Below, piece by piece: positions 1,887 to 30,547 of a stretch of 64,000 nucleotides of DNA. Both the position numbers and the translations under genes were made by a program. Source of the DNA: Arachnia propionica (GTDB taxonomy: Bacteria > Actinomycetota > Actinomycetes > Propionibacteriales > Propionibacteriaceae); NCBI RefSeq assembly GCF_037055325.1, contig NZ_CP146373.1, positions 372,001 through 436,000 of the forward strand, in the 5' to 3' direction. How positions within the stretch are numbered: the first letter of the stretch is position 1; each line of letters opens with the position of its first letter. The notes below the pieces were generated by a model that was given only the letters and a program-made list of their open reading frames with translations, did no database searches and had not been told where the DNA came from.

Positions 1887-2404
1887 GCTTGATTTCCTCC
1901 CTGATCGCGGACGTACCGGACTGGCCCAAACCCGGGGTGGTCTTCAAAGACATCACCCCATTGCTGGCCTCCCCCGAGGGTCTCCGGCAAGCGGTTGACG
2001 CAATTGTGGCGTCAGCTCCCGAGGCCATTGACGTGGTGGTTGGTATGGAAGCTCGGGGATTCATCTTTGCCACCCCCGTTGCCCTGGCCCTCGGAGCCGG
2101 GTTCGTGCCGGTCCGGAAACCAGGGAAGTTGCCACGTCCTGTGTTAAGCGAATCCTTCGATCTCGAATACGGCACGGCGACCCTCACCATGCACGCGGAT
2201 GCCCTCGTCGCGGGGGCACGTGTGCTCATCGTGGATGACGTGCTCGCCACCGGAGGCACCATCGCCGCCACGGCAGCATTGCTGAAACGACTCGGAGCAG
2301 AGCTTGTGCACGTGAGCGTGCTCCTCGAGCTCACAGCCCTCGGTGGCAGGGAAAAGCTTGCTGAGCAGGGAATCAGTAGTTGTTCGGCGGTTCTGACGAG
2401 CTAG
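1883..2404 (+). CDS. apt: Adenine phosphoribosyltransferase
   Basis: 173 residues, the normal length. The enzyme converts adenine plus PRPP to AMP in purine salvage. The N-terminal block SLIADVPDWPKPGVVFKDITPL and the PRPP-binding loop VLIVDDVLATGGT (residues ~113-125) identify the family. The start ATG overlaps the secF stop by four bases (ATGA). The secDF-apt-relA order is common in actinobacteria. Here a potassium channel gene follows before relA. Confidence 0.96.
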   Translation: MSLISSLIADVPDWPKPGVVFKDITPLLASPEGLRQAVDAIVASAPEAIDVVVGMEARGFIFATPVALALGAGFVPVRKPGKLPRPVLSESFDLEYGTATLTMHADALVAGARVLIVDDVLATGGTIAATAALLKRLGAELVHVSVLLELTALGGREKLAEQGISSCSAVLTS

Positions 2405-2408
2405 GGCC

Positions 2409-3476
2409 GTGGGCAGACTGAGGAAGCGGGTTCCCAAGGGGTATGCCACCTCAATGGTGAGCATGCCTCGTCCGCAGGTCCAGCCGCTGCGTGAGCTCGG
2501 CAAACGAGGTGTGCTGGCGCTCCTGCTGTTGATGATCAGCACCTTTGTTGTGTGGCTGGACCGCGATTCTTACATCGACAACAGCCGCCACGACGGGGTT
2601 AGTTTCATCGATGCTCTGTACTACTCAACGGTCACAATGACCACCACGGGTTACGGCGACATCACCCCTCTTGCCCCGCACGCCCGGCTCCTGAATGCGA
2701 TCCTCATCACCCCGATGCGTGTCGGCTTCCTGGTGCTGTTGGTCGGTACCACCATCGCTGTGCTGGCCGATGAGGGCAGCCGCGCCATCCGTGACCTGCA
2801 GTGGAGGCAGAAAATGCGCAATCACGTTGTCGTGATCGGCTACGGCACGAAGGGCCGCAGCGCAATCAACACTCTTCGTCGTCACGGGGAACCGGACGAC
2901 CGGATCGTCGTCATTGACAGCAGTGACGTCGCGGTGAATGAAGCCAACCTCGACGGGTTGGCCTCCTTTCTGGGGGATGCGACACGCCGTGATCTGTTGC
3001 GGCGGGCCGAGGTGTCCAAAGCCCGGAAGATCATCATTTGTTTGTCCCGCGACGATGCCGCTATTCTCACCACGCTCACCGCCAGGCAGCTCAACCCCGG
3101 GGCCAGCATCATCGTCAGCGTTCGTGAGAAGGACAACGTTGCCTTGGTCCGCCAGTCGGGTGCCACGTCTGTGGTGACCTCCTCGGACACGGTTGGACGG
3201 CTGCTCGGCCTGTCGGCGGTTGGCCCGGAGCTCGGAGCCATCATCCAGGATTTGCTGACTGCAGGAACAGGCCTGGAGGTTCAGCAACGACAGGCGATAC
3301 CTAGTGAGGTAGGACGGTCCCCGAACGATGTCAAGGGGGAGCAGGTCATCGGAATTATCCGCAACGGAACTCTGCGGCGTTTCTACGATTCCACGGCGTC
3401 TAGTATCCAGACCGGTGATCAACTGATCGTCGTGCGTCGTGCGGAACGACCCAACCTGCGAGACACCGATGACTGA
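2409..3476 (+). CDS. Two-TM potassium channel with TrkA-N/RCK domain
   Basis: 355 residues. A first hydrophobic helix (VLALLLLMISTFVVWL) is followed by a pore loop with the K+ selectivity filter TTTGYGD and a second helix (VGFLVLLVGTTIAVLA). A TrkA-N Rossmann domain begins at HVVVIGYGTKGRSAINTLRR (GxGxxG motif), with a TrkA-C-like tail. It should form a tetrameric RCK-gated K+ channel in the membrane. The chosen GTG lies four bases after the apt stop; an internal ATG ~15 codons later is also possible. Its position between apt and relA is unusual, and which ligand gates it cannot be told from sequence. Confidence 0.88.
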   Translation: MGRLRKRVPKGYATSMVSMPRPQVQPLRELGKRGVLALLLLMISTFVVWLDRDSYIDNSRHDGVSFIDALYYSTVTMTTTGYGDITPLAPHARLLNAILITPMRVGFLVLLVGTTIAVLADEGSRAIRDLQWRQKMRNHVVVIGYGTKGRSAINTLRRHGEPDDRIVVIDSSDVAVNEANLDGLASFLGDATRRDLLRRAEVSKARKIIICLSRDDAAILTTLTARQLNPGASIIVSVREKDNVALVRQSGATSVVTSSDTVGRLLGLSAVGPELGAIIQDLLTAGTGLEVQQRQAIPSEVGRSPNDVKGEQVIGIIRNGTLRRFYDSTASSIQTGDQLIVVRRAERPNLRDTDD

Positions 3477-24319: not shown

Positions 24320-25447
24320 ATGAATTCCCTTCCCGCGTTGTTGGTTCTGGAGGATGGGCGTTCATTCCTCGGGAGATCCTTCGGAGCACAGGGGGAGGCC
24401 TTCGGGGAACTGGTCTTCACCACCGGCATGTCCGGCTACCAGGAAACCTTGACCGACCCCTCCTACCGGGGCCAAGTGGTACTGGCCACCGCCCCGCACA
24501 TCGGGAACACGGGCTGGAACGATGAAGATGACGAGTCGGCCCGAATCCAGGTGGCAGGATACGTGGTGCGCGACCCAGCGCCCCGTCCGTCGAACTGGCG
24601 AAGCCGCAGAAGTCTTGACGCGGAACTCGCGGACCAGGGAATCGTCGGAATCTGCGACATCGACACCCGGGCTCTGACCCGCCACATCCGCTCCCTGGGG
24701 GCGATGCGGGTAGGGATCTCGACCCGCGAGCTGGACCCGGACAGGCTGCGCGCCAGGGTGCTGGAGCGGCCTGTGATGGCGGGCGCAGACCTGTGCGGTG
24801 AAGTATCCACGCCCAAGGCCCGAATCGTTCCCGCGGTGGGGGAGCGGCGCTTCACGGTGGCGGCCGTGGACCTCGGTATTAAGGACATGACACCTACGCA
24901 GATGGCAGGCCGTGGCATGGATGTGCACGTCCTGCCCGCGTCGACGAGTTTCGAGGAGATCGCCGCGCTGGAACCCGATGGGGTTTTCTTCTCCAACGGT
25001 CCTGGCGACCCGGCCACCGCCGACGGGCCGGTGACTGTGCTGCGGCAGGTGCTCGCCGCGGGTATCCCGTACTTCGGGATCTGCTTCGGCAACCAGCTGT
25101 TTGGACGGGCTCTCGGGTTCGGCACGTATAAACTGAAATTCGGGCACAGGGGCATCAACCAACCAGTGCTTGACCGCACTACTGGGAGGGTTGAGATCAC
25201 CTCGCAGAACCACGGGTTTGCCGTTGACGCCCCCCTGGACCGGGTAGTGGACACCGAGTTCGGGCAGGCGAGTGTCTCCCACACGGGTCTCAACGACGAC
25301 GTTGTCGAAGGTCTCGAACTGCATAGGGATGGGAAACTGGTGGCATTTTCCGTCCAATACCACCCGGAGGCCGCGGCTGGGCCGCATGACGCCAACCACC
25401 TCTTCGACCGCTTCGCCGACCTCATGGAGCGTGATCGTGCGCATTGA
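24320..25447 (+). CDS. carA: Carbamoyl-phosphate synthase small subunit (glutaminase)
   Basis: 375 residues. It supplies ammonia from glutamine to CarB. The N-terminal domain ([35 protein letters not shown]) is followed by a class I glutamine amidotransferase. The nucleophile Cys is in [10 protein letters not shown] (usually GICLGHQ), and the His/Glu pair is in [13 protein letters not shown]. The Phe-for-Leu and Asn-for-His changes beside the nucleophile are mild variations. TGGAGC precedes the ATG as a weak ribosome-binding site. Unlike the usual carAB pair, its 3' end overlaps the start of a foreign-looking ATPase gene. Confidence 0.95.
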
Positions 25448-26606
25448 ACACATGAGGGTCAGGAACTACAGGGTACTTCGGGACATCACATTCAAAGACT
25501 TGAAGCCCTTCACCGTCGTGATCGGATCCAACGGCAGCGGAAAATCCACTGTTTTCGATGTTTTTGCCTTTCTTCATGAAGCTTTCACGGTGGGTCTTAG
25601 AGGAGCTTGGGACAAACGGAATCGAATCGATGCCATTCGTAGCCGGGGTTCTGAAGGGCCCGTCGAGTTTGAGTTGAAGTATCGCGTTGACGTGGACGGG
25701 CAGAAAAGGCAGACAACATATGAAATCGCCATCGACGAGGAGAATGGGCAGCCGGTTGTACAGCGCGAAGTTCTCCGATGGACCACCGCGCAAGGGTCAG
25801 GGCGTCCTCGAGACATTTTGAGATTCGAACGTGGAAACGGAAAGATCTACAACGAGCAGACAAGTAAATATGAGGATGAAGCCTTGGATTCCCCTGATCT
25901 GCTGGCGGTCTCCGCCTTGGGGCAGATGCAACGTCATTTCAGGGTCAAGGCGCTGCGCAACTTTATTCAGGGATGGTATCTGTCGTATCTGACCGCGGAC
26001 AACACCCGTACCACACCCACGAGTCGGCCGGAACCGAGGTTGAGTCAGACTGGGGACAATCTGGCCAATGTGATTCAACATCTTCAGGAAAACCACCCGA
26101 GGACCTTGGAGGCGGTTTTCGATGTACTTGGTCGGCGAATTCCTCAGCTTGAGAGCATTCTCCCCAAGTTGCTCGAGGATGGTAGGCTCCTGCTACGCCT
26201 GAAAGATCGCCCGTTTGACGATCCCGTTCTCGACCGTTTCATCAGCGACGGTACGCTGAAACTTCTTGCCTACCTGACCATGCTTCACGATCCGACCCCT
26301 CCGACGGTGATTGGTATCGAGGAGCCGGAGAACCAGCTGCATCCAAGGTTGGTGCCGCCGTTGGCCGAAGATATTCGTGAACTCTCGGGGCGGTCCCAGG
26401 TTTTCGTCACCACACACTCTCGTGAATTTCTGTCGCTGGTGGATCCAAAGGAGTTGTGGATCATATTCCGTCGTGATGACGGATATGCGAGGTTGCACAG
26501 AGTGAGCGAGGATGAAAGGGTCATGGCCATGCTGCGCAAGGGAGCCTCGTTGCCTGAGCTATGGGCTGAGGGTTACCTGCATTCTGCCGACCCCAAGATG
26601 GCGTGA
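25437..26606 (+). CDS. AAA/SMC-like ATPase (AAA_21-type, OLD-like), first gene of the pair inserted in the car operon
   Basis: 389 residues. The N-terminus [17 protein letters not shown] leads into Walker [10 protein letters not shown] (residues 30-38). A long divergent middle follows, then an ABC-type Walker [13 protein letters not shown] (~293-304) and switch His in VTTHSREFL (~327). This is the layout of AAA_21/COG4637 ATPases related to OLD and RecF, soluble proteins that often act with a nuclease partner. The GTG at 25437 starts inside carA (11-bp overlap) with GGAG upstream; an ATG at 25452 is an alternative. Base composition is clearly less GC-rich than carA. A defence role is inferred from the partner gene, not shown. 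Confidence 0.82.
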
Positions 26607-26610
26607 TCAC

Positions 26611-27244
26611 ATGACGGTATCCGTTGCGCATGTCGATTTCTTGGTAGAGGGATACTCGATGAAAATATTTCTCGAGACTATTCTCCCCAAGATCCTGCCG
26701 GATGATCTCGTGTTCGAGGTGTTTGATCTTGGCAGTAAAAGTCAGTTCTTGAAGAAATTTCCCAAACGCCTCGCCGGCTATTCTTTGTGGATGCCGGATG
26801 ACTATCGCGTCGTTCTTGTGGTGGATGCCGACCGGGATGATTGTAGCGAACTCAGAGCTATGATGATCACCGAGATTGAGAAATCTGGTTTGACTGTGAC
26901 AAGTTTGGGGTCATCATGTCAGGGTCAGGTTCTTCTCTGCATAGCGATTGAGATGTTGGAGGCTTGGTTCTTTGGTGACGCCAGGGCGATAGGAGAAGCA
27001 TATGGAAAAAAGTTTATGAATCTCCATAACAGAAGAGGTTGTCGTCAACCGGATAGAATTCAAGATCCGGCTCGTCGTTTGGAAAGCATACTGACAAATG
27101 TTTCGAAGCATCAGGCCGGACTGAAAAAAGTGGACCTCGTTTTGGATGCGACTCCGCACATGGATATTGAAAACAACACGTCGAACAGTTTCTGCCGGCT
27201 CCGTGACGGAGTTCGGTTCCTGATCAATTCATCCCAGGAGAGTC

Positions 27245-27261
<17 letters not shown>
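26611..27261 (+). CDS. DUF4276 (Toprim-like, RloG-type) protein, second gene of the pair inserted in the car operon
   Basis: 216 residues. The pattern is that of DUF4276: an early acidic residue in FLVEGYSMK (Glu13), [12 protein letters not shown] (Asp72, Asp74) and the family block [13 protein letters not shown] (~112-122). Together these resemble the Glu and DxD acids of a Toprim nuclease fold. The ATG at 26611 is four bases after the ATPase stop, so the two are co-translated; a longer in-frame extension inside the ATPase gene is rejected. Its last codons run 17 bp into carB. One line of this gene (27001-27060) has 21 G/C in 60 by hand count, far below the neighbours, indicating recent transfer. 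Confidence 0.8.

Positions 27262-30543
<3,282 letters not shown>

Positions 30544-30547
<4 letters not shown>

Follow-up and report, generated by a model that had tools for sequence, protein, structure and literature searches.

The car locus and its inserted gene pair

The window analysed here, the whole stretch of 64,000 nucleotides taken from the complete 3.31 Mb genome of Arachnia propionica (G000), contains a pair of genes lying between carA and carB, of which the first encodes an ABC ATPase and the second a DUF4276 protein. Both belong to HEC-01, one of the Hma-embedded candidates (HEC) of PADLOC, so that a known candidate family is found here in a new kind of place and with an unexpected evolutionary pattern. 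The junction between carA and carB is the usual site of this HEC-01 subtype in Actinomycetes and not a one-off insertion, and it is the recurrence of the insertion site that is new. The gene order around the pair is aroE, aroC, aroK, aroB, efp, nusB, carA, the pair, carB, pyrD and pyrF, in which the names other than carA and carB were read off the open reading frames (ORFs) of the window. The features of the locus are as follows.

24320..25447, + strand: carA, small subunit of carbamoyl-phosphate synthase, intact (Pfam CPSase_sm_chain 7e-51, GATase 2.4e-39; ORF)
25426..25429, + strand: GGAG within carA, possible ribosome-binding site of the ATPase gene (read from the sequence)
25437..26606, + strand: HEC-01A-type ABC ATPase, 389 aa, GTG start (PADLOC PDLC04182 2.6e-145; Pfam AAA_21 7.8e-30)
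25524..25550, + strand: Walker A motif, residues 30-38 (G30, N32, G33, S34, G35, K36 and T38 invariant in 38 homologues)
26310..26345, + strand: Walker B region, residues 292-303 (G293-Q300 invariant in 38 homologues)
26611..27261, + strand: HEC-01B-type DUF4276 protein, 216 aa, Toprim-like nuclease candidate
26647..26649, + strand: Glu13 codon, Toprim glutamate position ending strand 1 (invariant in 55 homologues; strand E7-12)
26824..26832, + strand: Asp72-x-Asp74 codons, DxD ending strand 3 (invariant in 55 homologues; strand E65-72)
27236..27240, + strand: AGGAG in the last DUF4276 codons, likely ribosome-binding site of carB (read from the sequence)
27245..30547, + strand: carB, large subunit of carbamoyl-phosphate synthase, intact (Pfam CPSase_L_D2 3.4e-103; ORF)

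The ATPase gene overlaps carA by 11 bp, the spacing between the two inserted genes is 4 bp, and the DUF4276 gene overlaps carB by 17 bp. These values and the gene coordinates had been proposed in an original prediction made from the letters of the DNA, and they are confirmed by the ORFs, as is its claim that both car genes are intact, since CarA and CarB match their Pfam families along their length. Because the genome has a single carA and a single carB match at E <= 1e-40, the pair occupies its only carAB. The start of the ATPase gene lies at the identical place in the closest named relative, [Pseudopropionibacterium] massiliense (L063), with which the ATPase shares 95%, the DUF4276 protein 93%, CarA 94% and CarB 96% identity. 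A scan for promoters and terminators gave no excess over shuffled sequence (2 against 1.3 and 4 against 2.5), and the overlaps suggest that the pair would be co-transcribed with the genes of pyrimidine synthesis. The lower G+C content noticed in the prediction also holds, with 54.4% in the ATPase gene and 48.0% in the DUF4276 gene against 64.4% in carA, 62.8% in carB and 63.1% in the window. Among 29 tabulated carriers of the pair, third-position G+C lies below that of both car genes in all 29 for the DUF4276 gene and in 28 for the ATPase gene (the exception being L294).

Protein families and fold

The HEC-01 models of PADLOC are the best match of both proteins, which are adjacent and in the same order: the ATPase matches PDLC04182 (HEC-01A) at 2.6e-145 across residues 2-384, and the protein encoded 4 bp further on matches PDLC04202 (HEC-01B) at 2.2e-57. 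Two of the Pfam families that had been put forward for checking were recovered, AAA_21 at 7.8e-30 and DUF4276 at 1.6e-17. The predicted Walker A and Walker B motifs and the switch-type His327 are present in the ATPase, whose weaker PADLOC matches are mad3 (1.2e-27), AbiLi (4.6e-24) and PtuA (1.4e-15). The DUF4276 protein has no sequence link to any solved structure; its fold is Toprim-like, with the OLD nucleases nearest, and the residues E13, D72 and D74, earlier noted to stand in Toprim-like positions, are invariant across 55 aligned homologues, as would suit a glutamate and DxD set of metal ligands. Beside relatives of the pair elsewhere, HsdR was found five times and HsdS four times among 92 of 96 neighbouring ORFs, a raw count with no control set (the neighbours of L134 were omitted as near-copies of those of L070).

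Recurrence of the insertion site

A scan of 84,980 named species returned 74 loci with relatives of the ATPase. When these were compared over the full length, the top nine by similarity (best segment 58-95% identical) were without exception located between carA and carB. These nine come from massiliense, Arachnia propionica, Tessaracoccus bendigoensis, Phytoactinopolyspora halophila, Actinophytocola, Actinokineospora pegani, Gordonia spumicola, Amycolatopsis coloradensis and Pseudonocardia. Neither carA nor carB was seen in the remaining 65 loci within the flanking DNA examined, which is short for some.

Within the genus, the DUF4276 gene was detected in 6 of the 39 genomes searched, in all six at car, and a hand tally of the junctions placed the pair in 6 of 35 scorable genomes, the other 29 being without insertion. 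Comparison of the junctions had been named in advance as the test that could overturn the original prediction, and the pair proved to be absent from most relatives. The same patchiness is seen around other carriers, where a gap of 1.8 kb is present in one of 50 scorable junctions around Gordonia spumicola (51 genomes), that of G. spumicola itself, and a gap of this kind in one of 37 around Phytoactinopolyspora (40 genomes) and in 8 of 59 around Amycolatopsis coloradensis (60 genomes), all eight of the latter being filled by the ATPase-DUF4276 pair. In Pseudonocardiaceae the DUF4276 profile matches 25 of 390 genomes (E <= 1e-15), 24 of them between carA and carB. Counting each once, a total of 32 carriers at this junction are distributed over Propionibacteriaceae, Jiangellaceae, Gordoniaceae and Pseudonocardiaceae, a recurrence that exceeds chance. 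The sole match outside car among the 25 is a genome similar to Streptoalloteichus tenebrarius (G959; L119, L258, L300), in which the pair has a shortened DUF4276 frame.

In an even sample of the phylum, with the top four first-look candidates scored per genome, the ATPase was found at E <= 1e-40 in one of 396 genomes, which is G000. An even sample of the class, searched for DUF4276, gave 5 of 394 genomes: two at car (G000 and G987, the latter sharing the coordinates of G488 and counted once), one in a locus without carA or carB (G1223), and two between aroK and aroB. This second core-operon site is occupied in one genus of another family (G1053, L307:4454-6338, G1053:C41; and G1316, L308, G1316:C1), and the pair of L307 overlaps aroK and aroB by 8 and 4 bp. 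It belongs to the aro-efp-nusB neighbourhood, which in the window runs up to carA; there aroK and aroB share 4 bp and have no insert.

When 212 different scorable genomes were pooled by hand tally, the pair was present in 16, another insertion of about 0.7 kb in one (G613), and the rest had gaps of about 175 bp or less; the ratio of 16 to 212 is not a frequency, given that four of the pooled samples were centred on the carriers G000, G491, G492 and G488. We considered a general insertion hotspot at this junction and rejected it, with G613 the only genome among the 212 to carry a different insertion. That insert (G613:C90, L231, about 2300-3020), the only other one exceeding 200 bp, holds an ORF of 99 aa with a hydrophobic end stretch. 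Two of the Amycolatopsis kin (G565 and G575; L285, L286) have a gap of 156 bp and an altered carA tail.

Base-exact fit and empty sites

At the empty sites of the genus carA and carB mostly overlap by one base (TGATG), and those of the Amycolatopsis kin, by which we mean genomes drawn as relatives of A. coloradensis (L224-L230 having 91-94% CarB identity with it or with each other), read TGATG or TAATG. The frames of carriers are linked end to end, commonly through overlaps of 4 bp or 1 bp, and all 29 carriers checked have a GGAG, GAGG, AGGA or AAGG core no more than 20 nt from carB, either in the last DUF4276 codons or just after them. The module thereby appears to replace the carB translation signal that the carA tail provides at empty sites. 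Target-site duplications or end repeats were sought by comparing the carA tail with the DUF4276 tail in the 29 carriers, which gave a mean score of 14.7, compared to 12.6 for shuffled tails and 14.1 for the tails of other genomes; since only L068, L067, L069 and L230 (plus L064 at 0.05) stood out, there is no general end repeat. The empty sites nearest to the window lineage, G071 (L140) and G075 (L143), possess a spacer of 50-60 bp whose last 14-16 nt equal the pre-carB sequence of carriers, and the two spacers are alike along their length. Such a spacer may be the scar of a deletion, which its end is suggestive of, or an older form of the empty site.

History of the pair in the window's lineage

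Among nine window-type carriers, ATPase identity follows CarA identity with r 0.93 over 36 pairs; the identity comparison kept 15 of 16 carriers, L066 being dropped for a miscalled DUF4276 start. For 13 carriers, the DUF4276 data do not reject the car tree (p 0.26) and the ATPase data reject it weakly (approximately unbiased (AU) test 0.018, Shimodaira-Hasegawa (SH) test 0.25), while the ATPase tree is rejected by the car data (6e-6), the differences arising from the placement of Gordonia and G950. On the carAB tree of the genus, carriers occur in three places, requiring at least three changes, and as 22 of 500 shuffles were as low, their clustering is weak. In a quick tree the car-located ATPases form two groups with no non-car member within, and the Gordonia pair groups with Jiangellaceae and Propionibacteriaceae, not with Pseudonocardiaceae.

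Judged by these comparisons, the pair is an old resident of the window lineage that has largely followed the car genes. The original prediction had called it foreign, which its base composition fits; however, within the genus its branching order is that of the car genes, so that its arrival was not recent. Recent phage or plasmid cargo was also considered as the source and rejected: the ATPase is matched by 4 of 50,697 phage records, with 29.6% identity at best, and by 220 of 72,556 plasmid records, 15 of them over most of its length and the best at 52.7% (Meiothermus).

Mosaic alleles in the Amycolatopsis kin

A different pattern is found around Amycolatopsis. On a carB tree of 51 genomes with 23 carriers (L128 counted among them, although its carA and ATPase frames break in the draft), presence of the pair changes 9 times, at least 7, and in the Amycolatopsis-like subset 8 times, at least 5. 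In 12 carriers of one carB clade, the mean synonymous difference is 0.20 for carA and 0.16 for carB, and it rises to 0.29, 0.49 and 0.45 in three successive parts of the ATPase gene and to 0.40 in the DUF4276 gene. Divergence is low through the first 45 ATPase codons (0.17) and high inside the pair, before it falls to 0.14 in the last DUF4276 codons and 0.05 in the first carB codons. The carA data of these carriers accept the carB tree (0.085) and the carB data reject the carA tree (0.0002), and three segments of the pair each reject both car trees. Within the pair, both the tree of the ATPase C-terminal part and that of DUF4276 are rejected on the data of the ATPase middle. The C-terminal data accept the tree of DUF4276 (0.07); in the reverse direction the two tests differ, the C-terminal tree being rejected on DUF4276 data under AU (0.006) and not rejected under SH (0.47).

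The alignment displays two cassette types of ATPase C-terminus plus DUF4276, and G570 and G740 combine a shared ATPase (synonymous difference 0.00-0.12) with a diverged DUF4276 (up to 0.51) and ordinary flanks. In one of the cassette types (L295-L299 as opposed to L224-L229), VEEPEKQVHP replaces EEPENQVHP in Walker B, together with a different ATPase C-terminus and DUF4276. Read from these alignments and trees, the pair is a divergence island and a mosaic, in which the ATPase middle has its own history and the C-terminus goes with DUF4276. Exchange of parts by homologous recombination offers the simplest account.

It could be argued instead that the descent was purely vertical, from one ancient actinobacterial insertion followed by many losses and by fast evolution in Amycolatopsis, with no horizontal exchange. 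The correlation of ATPase with CarA identity in the window-type carriers, the two car-located groups of the quick tree, and the G071 and G075 spacer ends, which match what a deletion would leave, are all in its favour. We nevertheless regard it as unlikely, given that in the 12 carriers synonymous and not just protein divergence exceeds that of the flanks by a factor of 1.5 to 3, that parts of the pair reject the car trees and partly each other, that the Gordonia pair sides with Jiangellaceae and Propionibacteriaceae, and that the two spacers, being mutually similar, may represent an older empty site.

Comparison with known defence systems

HEC systems are described as genes found within Hma systems, where they lie between Hma genes and are likewise embedded in another operon (PMC12111858), and several of them, including HEC-06, are described as having antiviral activity (PMC12988326). 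For HEC-01 itself we found neither a description nor a statement of antiviral activity in the literature, its mention in phage defence being an entry in a list. Unlike HEC in Hma, the host operon here is one of core metabolism (carA and carB, or aroK and aroB in another family), the site is fixed and the alleles are mosaic. The prediction had placed the pair among the ATPase-Toprim systems, and the Toprim-like fold agrees with this, but the nearest family is HEC-01 and not PARIS, Gabija or AbiL. In PARIS (AriA-AriB) the partner contains DUF4435, which the second protein here matches at E 0.0076 with 16.5 bits against a cut-off of 27; it carries DUF4276 instead, is shorter than AriB and occupies a core-operon site. 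OLD nucleases of class 1 and class 2 are described as sharing the ABC ATPase and Toprim parts with comparable acidic residues and a lysine (PMC6755086, PMC7049728) and are the best fold matches of the DUF4276 protein; they are one chain, whereas two separate ORFs are found here. In MADS (mad3), AbiL, Gabija and Septu or retron PtuA the ATPase is related and the partners differ, and none of the other genes of these systems adjoins the pair: beside the ATPase there is no UvrD-like helicase GajB, the neighbours being CarA and CarB, and AbiLii is not among the 15 PADLOC families matched by the second protein at E <= 0.1. The core defence hotspots of Pseudomonas aeruginosa are reportedly sites flanked by core genes. 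They share with the present locus a fixed chromosomal site between core genes and the turnover of defence genes; here, in contrast, the site lies within an operon and separates two genes of one enzyme, with one module type and a base-exact fit. We found no report of such a pair between carA and carB in the literature covered, outside of which lie most subscription papers and bioRxiv.

Proposed function and alternatives

The pair is probably an operon-embedded two-gene immune module of HEC-01 type, composed of a sensor ATPase and a Toprim nuclease. Defence is the best reading because of the HEC-01 models, the fold, the relatives of the ATPase, the restriction genes beside relatives and the allele shuffling centred on the ATPase middle, and the earlier proposal that two genes form a candidate defence module within a biosynthetic operon is supported by the first two of these and by the absence of the pair from the junction in most relatives. 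What the sequences establish is the family, the fold, the fit, the recurrent site and, in the Amycolatopsis kin, the mosaic history; we infer its anti-phage function, sensing, trigger, nuclease activity, target and route of transfer along the following lines. The first protein, an ABC ATPase of the OLD, PtuA and AriA kind, would be the sensor, and the second, of Toprim type, the effector. AriA of PARIS is described as a hexameric ABC ATPase sensor that sequesters AriB, which is freed by a phage trigger to cut tRNA (PMC12409363). By analogy, the nuclease may be held in check by the ATPase, whose middle region would receive the infection signal; once freed, the nuclease would cut host or phage nucleic acid and halt phage growth. 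In Ts OLD the Toprim is described as packing on the ATPase domain (PMC7049728), and the co-inheritance of the ATPase C-terminus with DUF4276 fits such packing. Through its overlapping frames the module would be translated along with carbamoyl-phosphate synthase, with the end of the DUF4276 gene providing the ribosome-binding site of carB. It has neither an integrase of its own nor end repeats. It presumably moves by homologous recombination in the conserved flanks that the car genes provide, and this would also swap alleles and parts of alleles.

A second possibility is a selfish addiction pair, in which a nuclease toxin held by the ATPase is retained by wedging itself in an essential operon, with no net anti-phage benefit. 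Tight overlaps with both neighbours, a place in the only carAB of the genome, patchy presence and lower G+C would all suit such an element, and PDB entries label PARIS AriA as "AriA antitoxin". We hold this to be improbable, since precise empty sites are common, meaning that loss is tolerated, and a pure toxin-antitoxin pair would not be expected to exchange its ATPase middle as a module. Quite improbable is a housekeeping or regulatory module of nucleotide metabolism, RNA processing or the cell cycle, kept in the car operon so that its dose follows pyrimidine synthesis: the near-congruence of the old window-lineage pair with the car genes (r 0.93, 36 pairs) would agree with it, but 29 of the 35 scorable genomes of the genus and, at E <= 1e-15, 365 of the 390 Pseudonocardiaceae lack the pair, which shows allele shuffling and a divergence island, and has relatives at aroK-aroB and beside type I restriction genes, and so has no tie to pyrimidines as such. 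Two points on the housekeeping side do weigh against defence: positive selection, as a nonsynonymous to synonymous ratio (dN/dS) above 1, was looked for and not found, dN/dS being below 1, and an OLD-family ATPase of the archaeon Saccharolobus reportedly has a role in the cell cycle.

As a tentative extension, the junction of carA and carB in Actinomycetes could serve as a standing immune locus, its three allelic states (empty, window type and Amycolatopsis type) spreading without mobile elements, by ordinary homologous recombination through the conserved metabolic genes on either side. The sensor (ATPase middle) would reassort independently of the effector unit (ATPase C-terminus and DUF4276), in a prokaryotic analogue of a polymorphic recognition locus, and embedding in nucleotide or shikimate operons might be useful in that expression goes with biosynthetic demand and silencing would starve the cell. 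Islands, prophages and plasmids are where defence genes are usually sought. Should core biosynthetic operons house them as well, with a base-exact fit at a fixed site, screens based on islands or mobility will miss them, and the junctions within such operons will offer new ground for a search. Moreover, the Amycolatopsis alleles are natural chimaeras that separate the presumed sensor from the effector-coupling region, by which the question of what triggers an ABC ATPase-Toprim system becomes testable.

Further HEC-01A genes in the genome

Outside the window, at about 2.514 and 2.519 Mb of G000, are two further HEC-01A ATPases (L301:5177-6325, - strand, and L301:9377-10516, + strand). Their neighbours of 208 and 171 aa have no PADLOC match at E <= 1e-5, and the ATPases themselves belong to other subtypes, matching PDLC04180 at 5.6e-156 and PDLC04175 at 1.1e-117.
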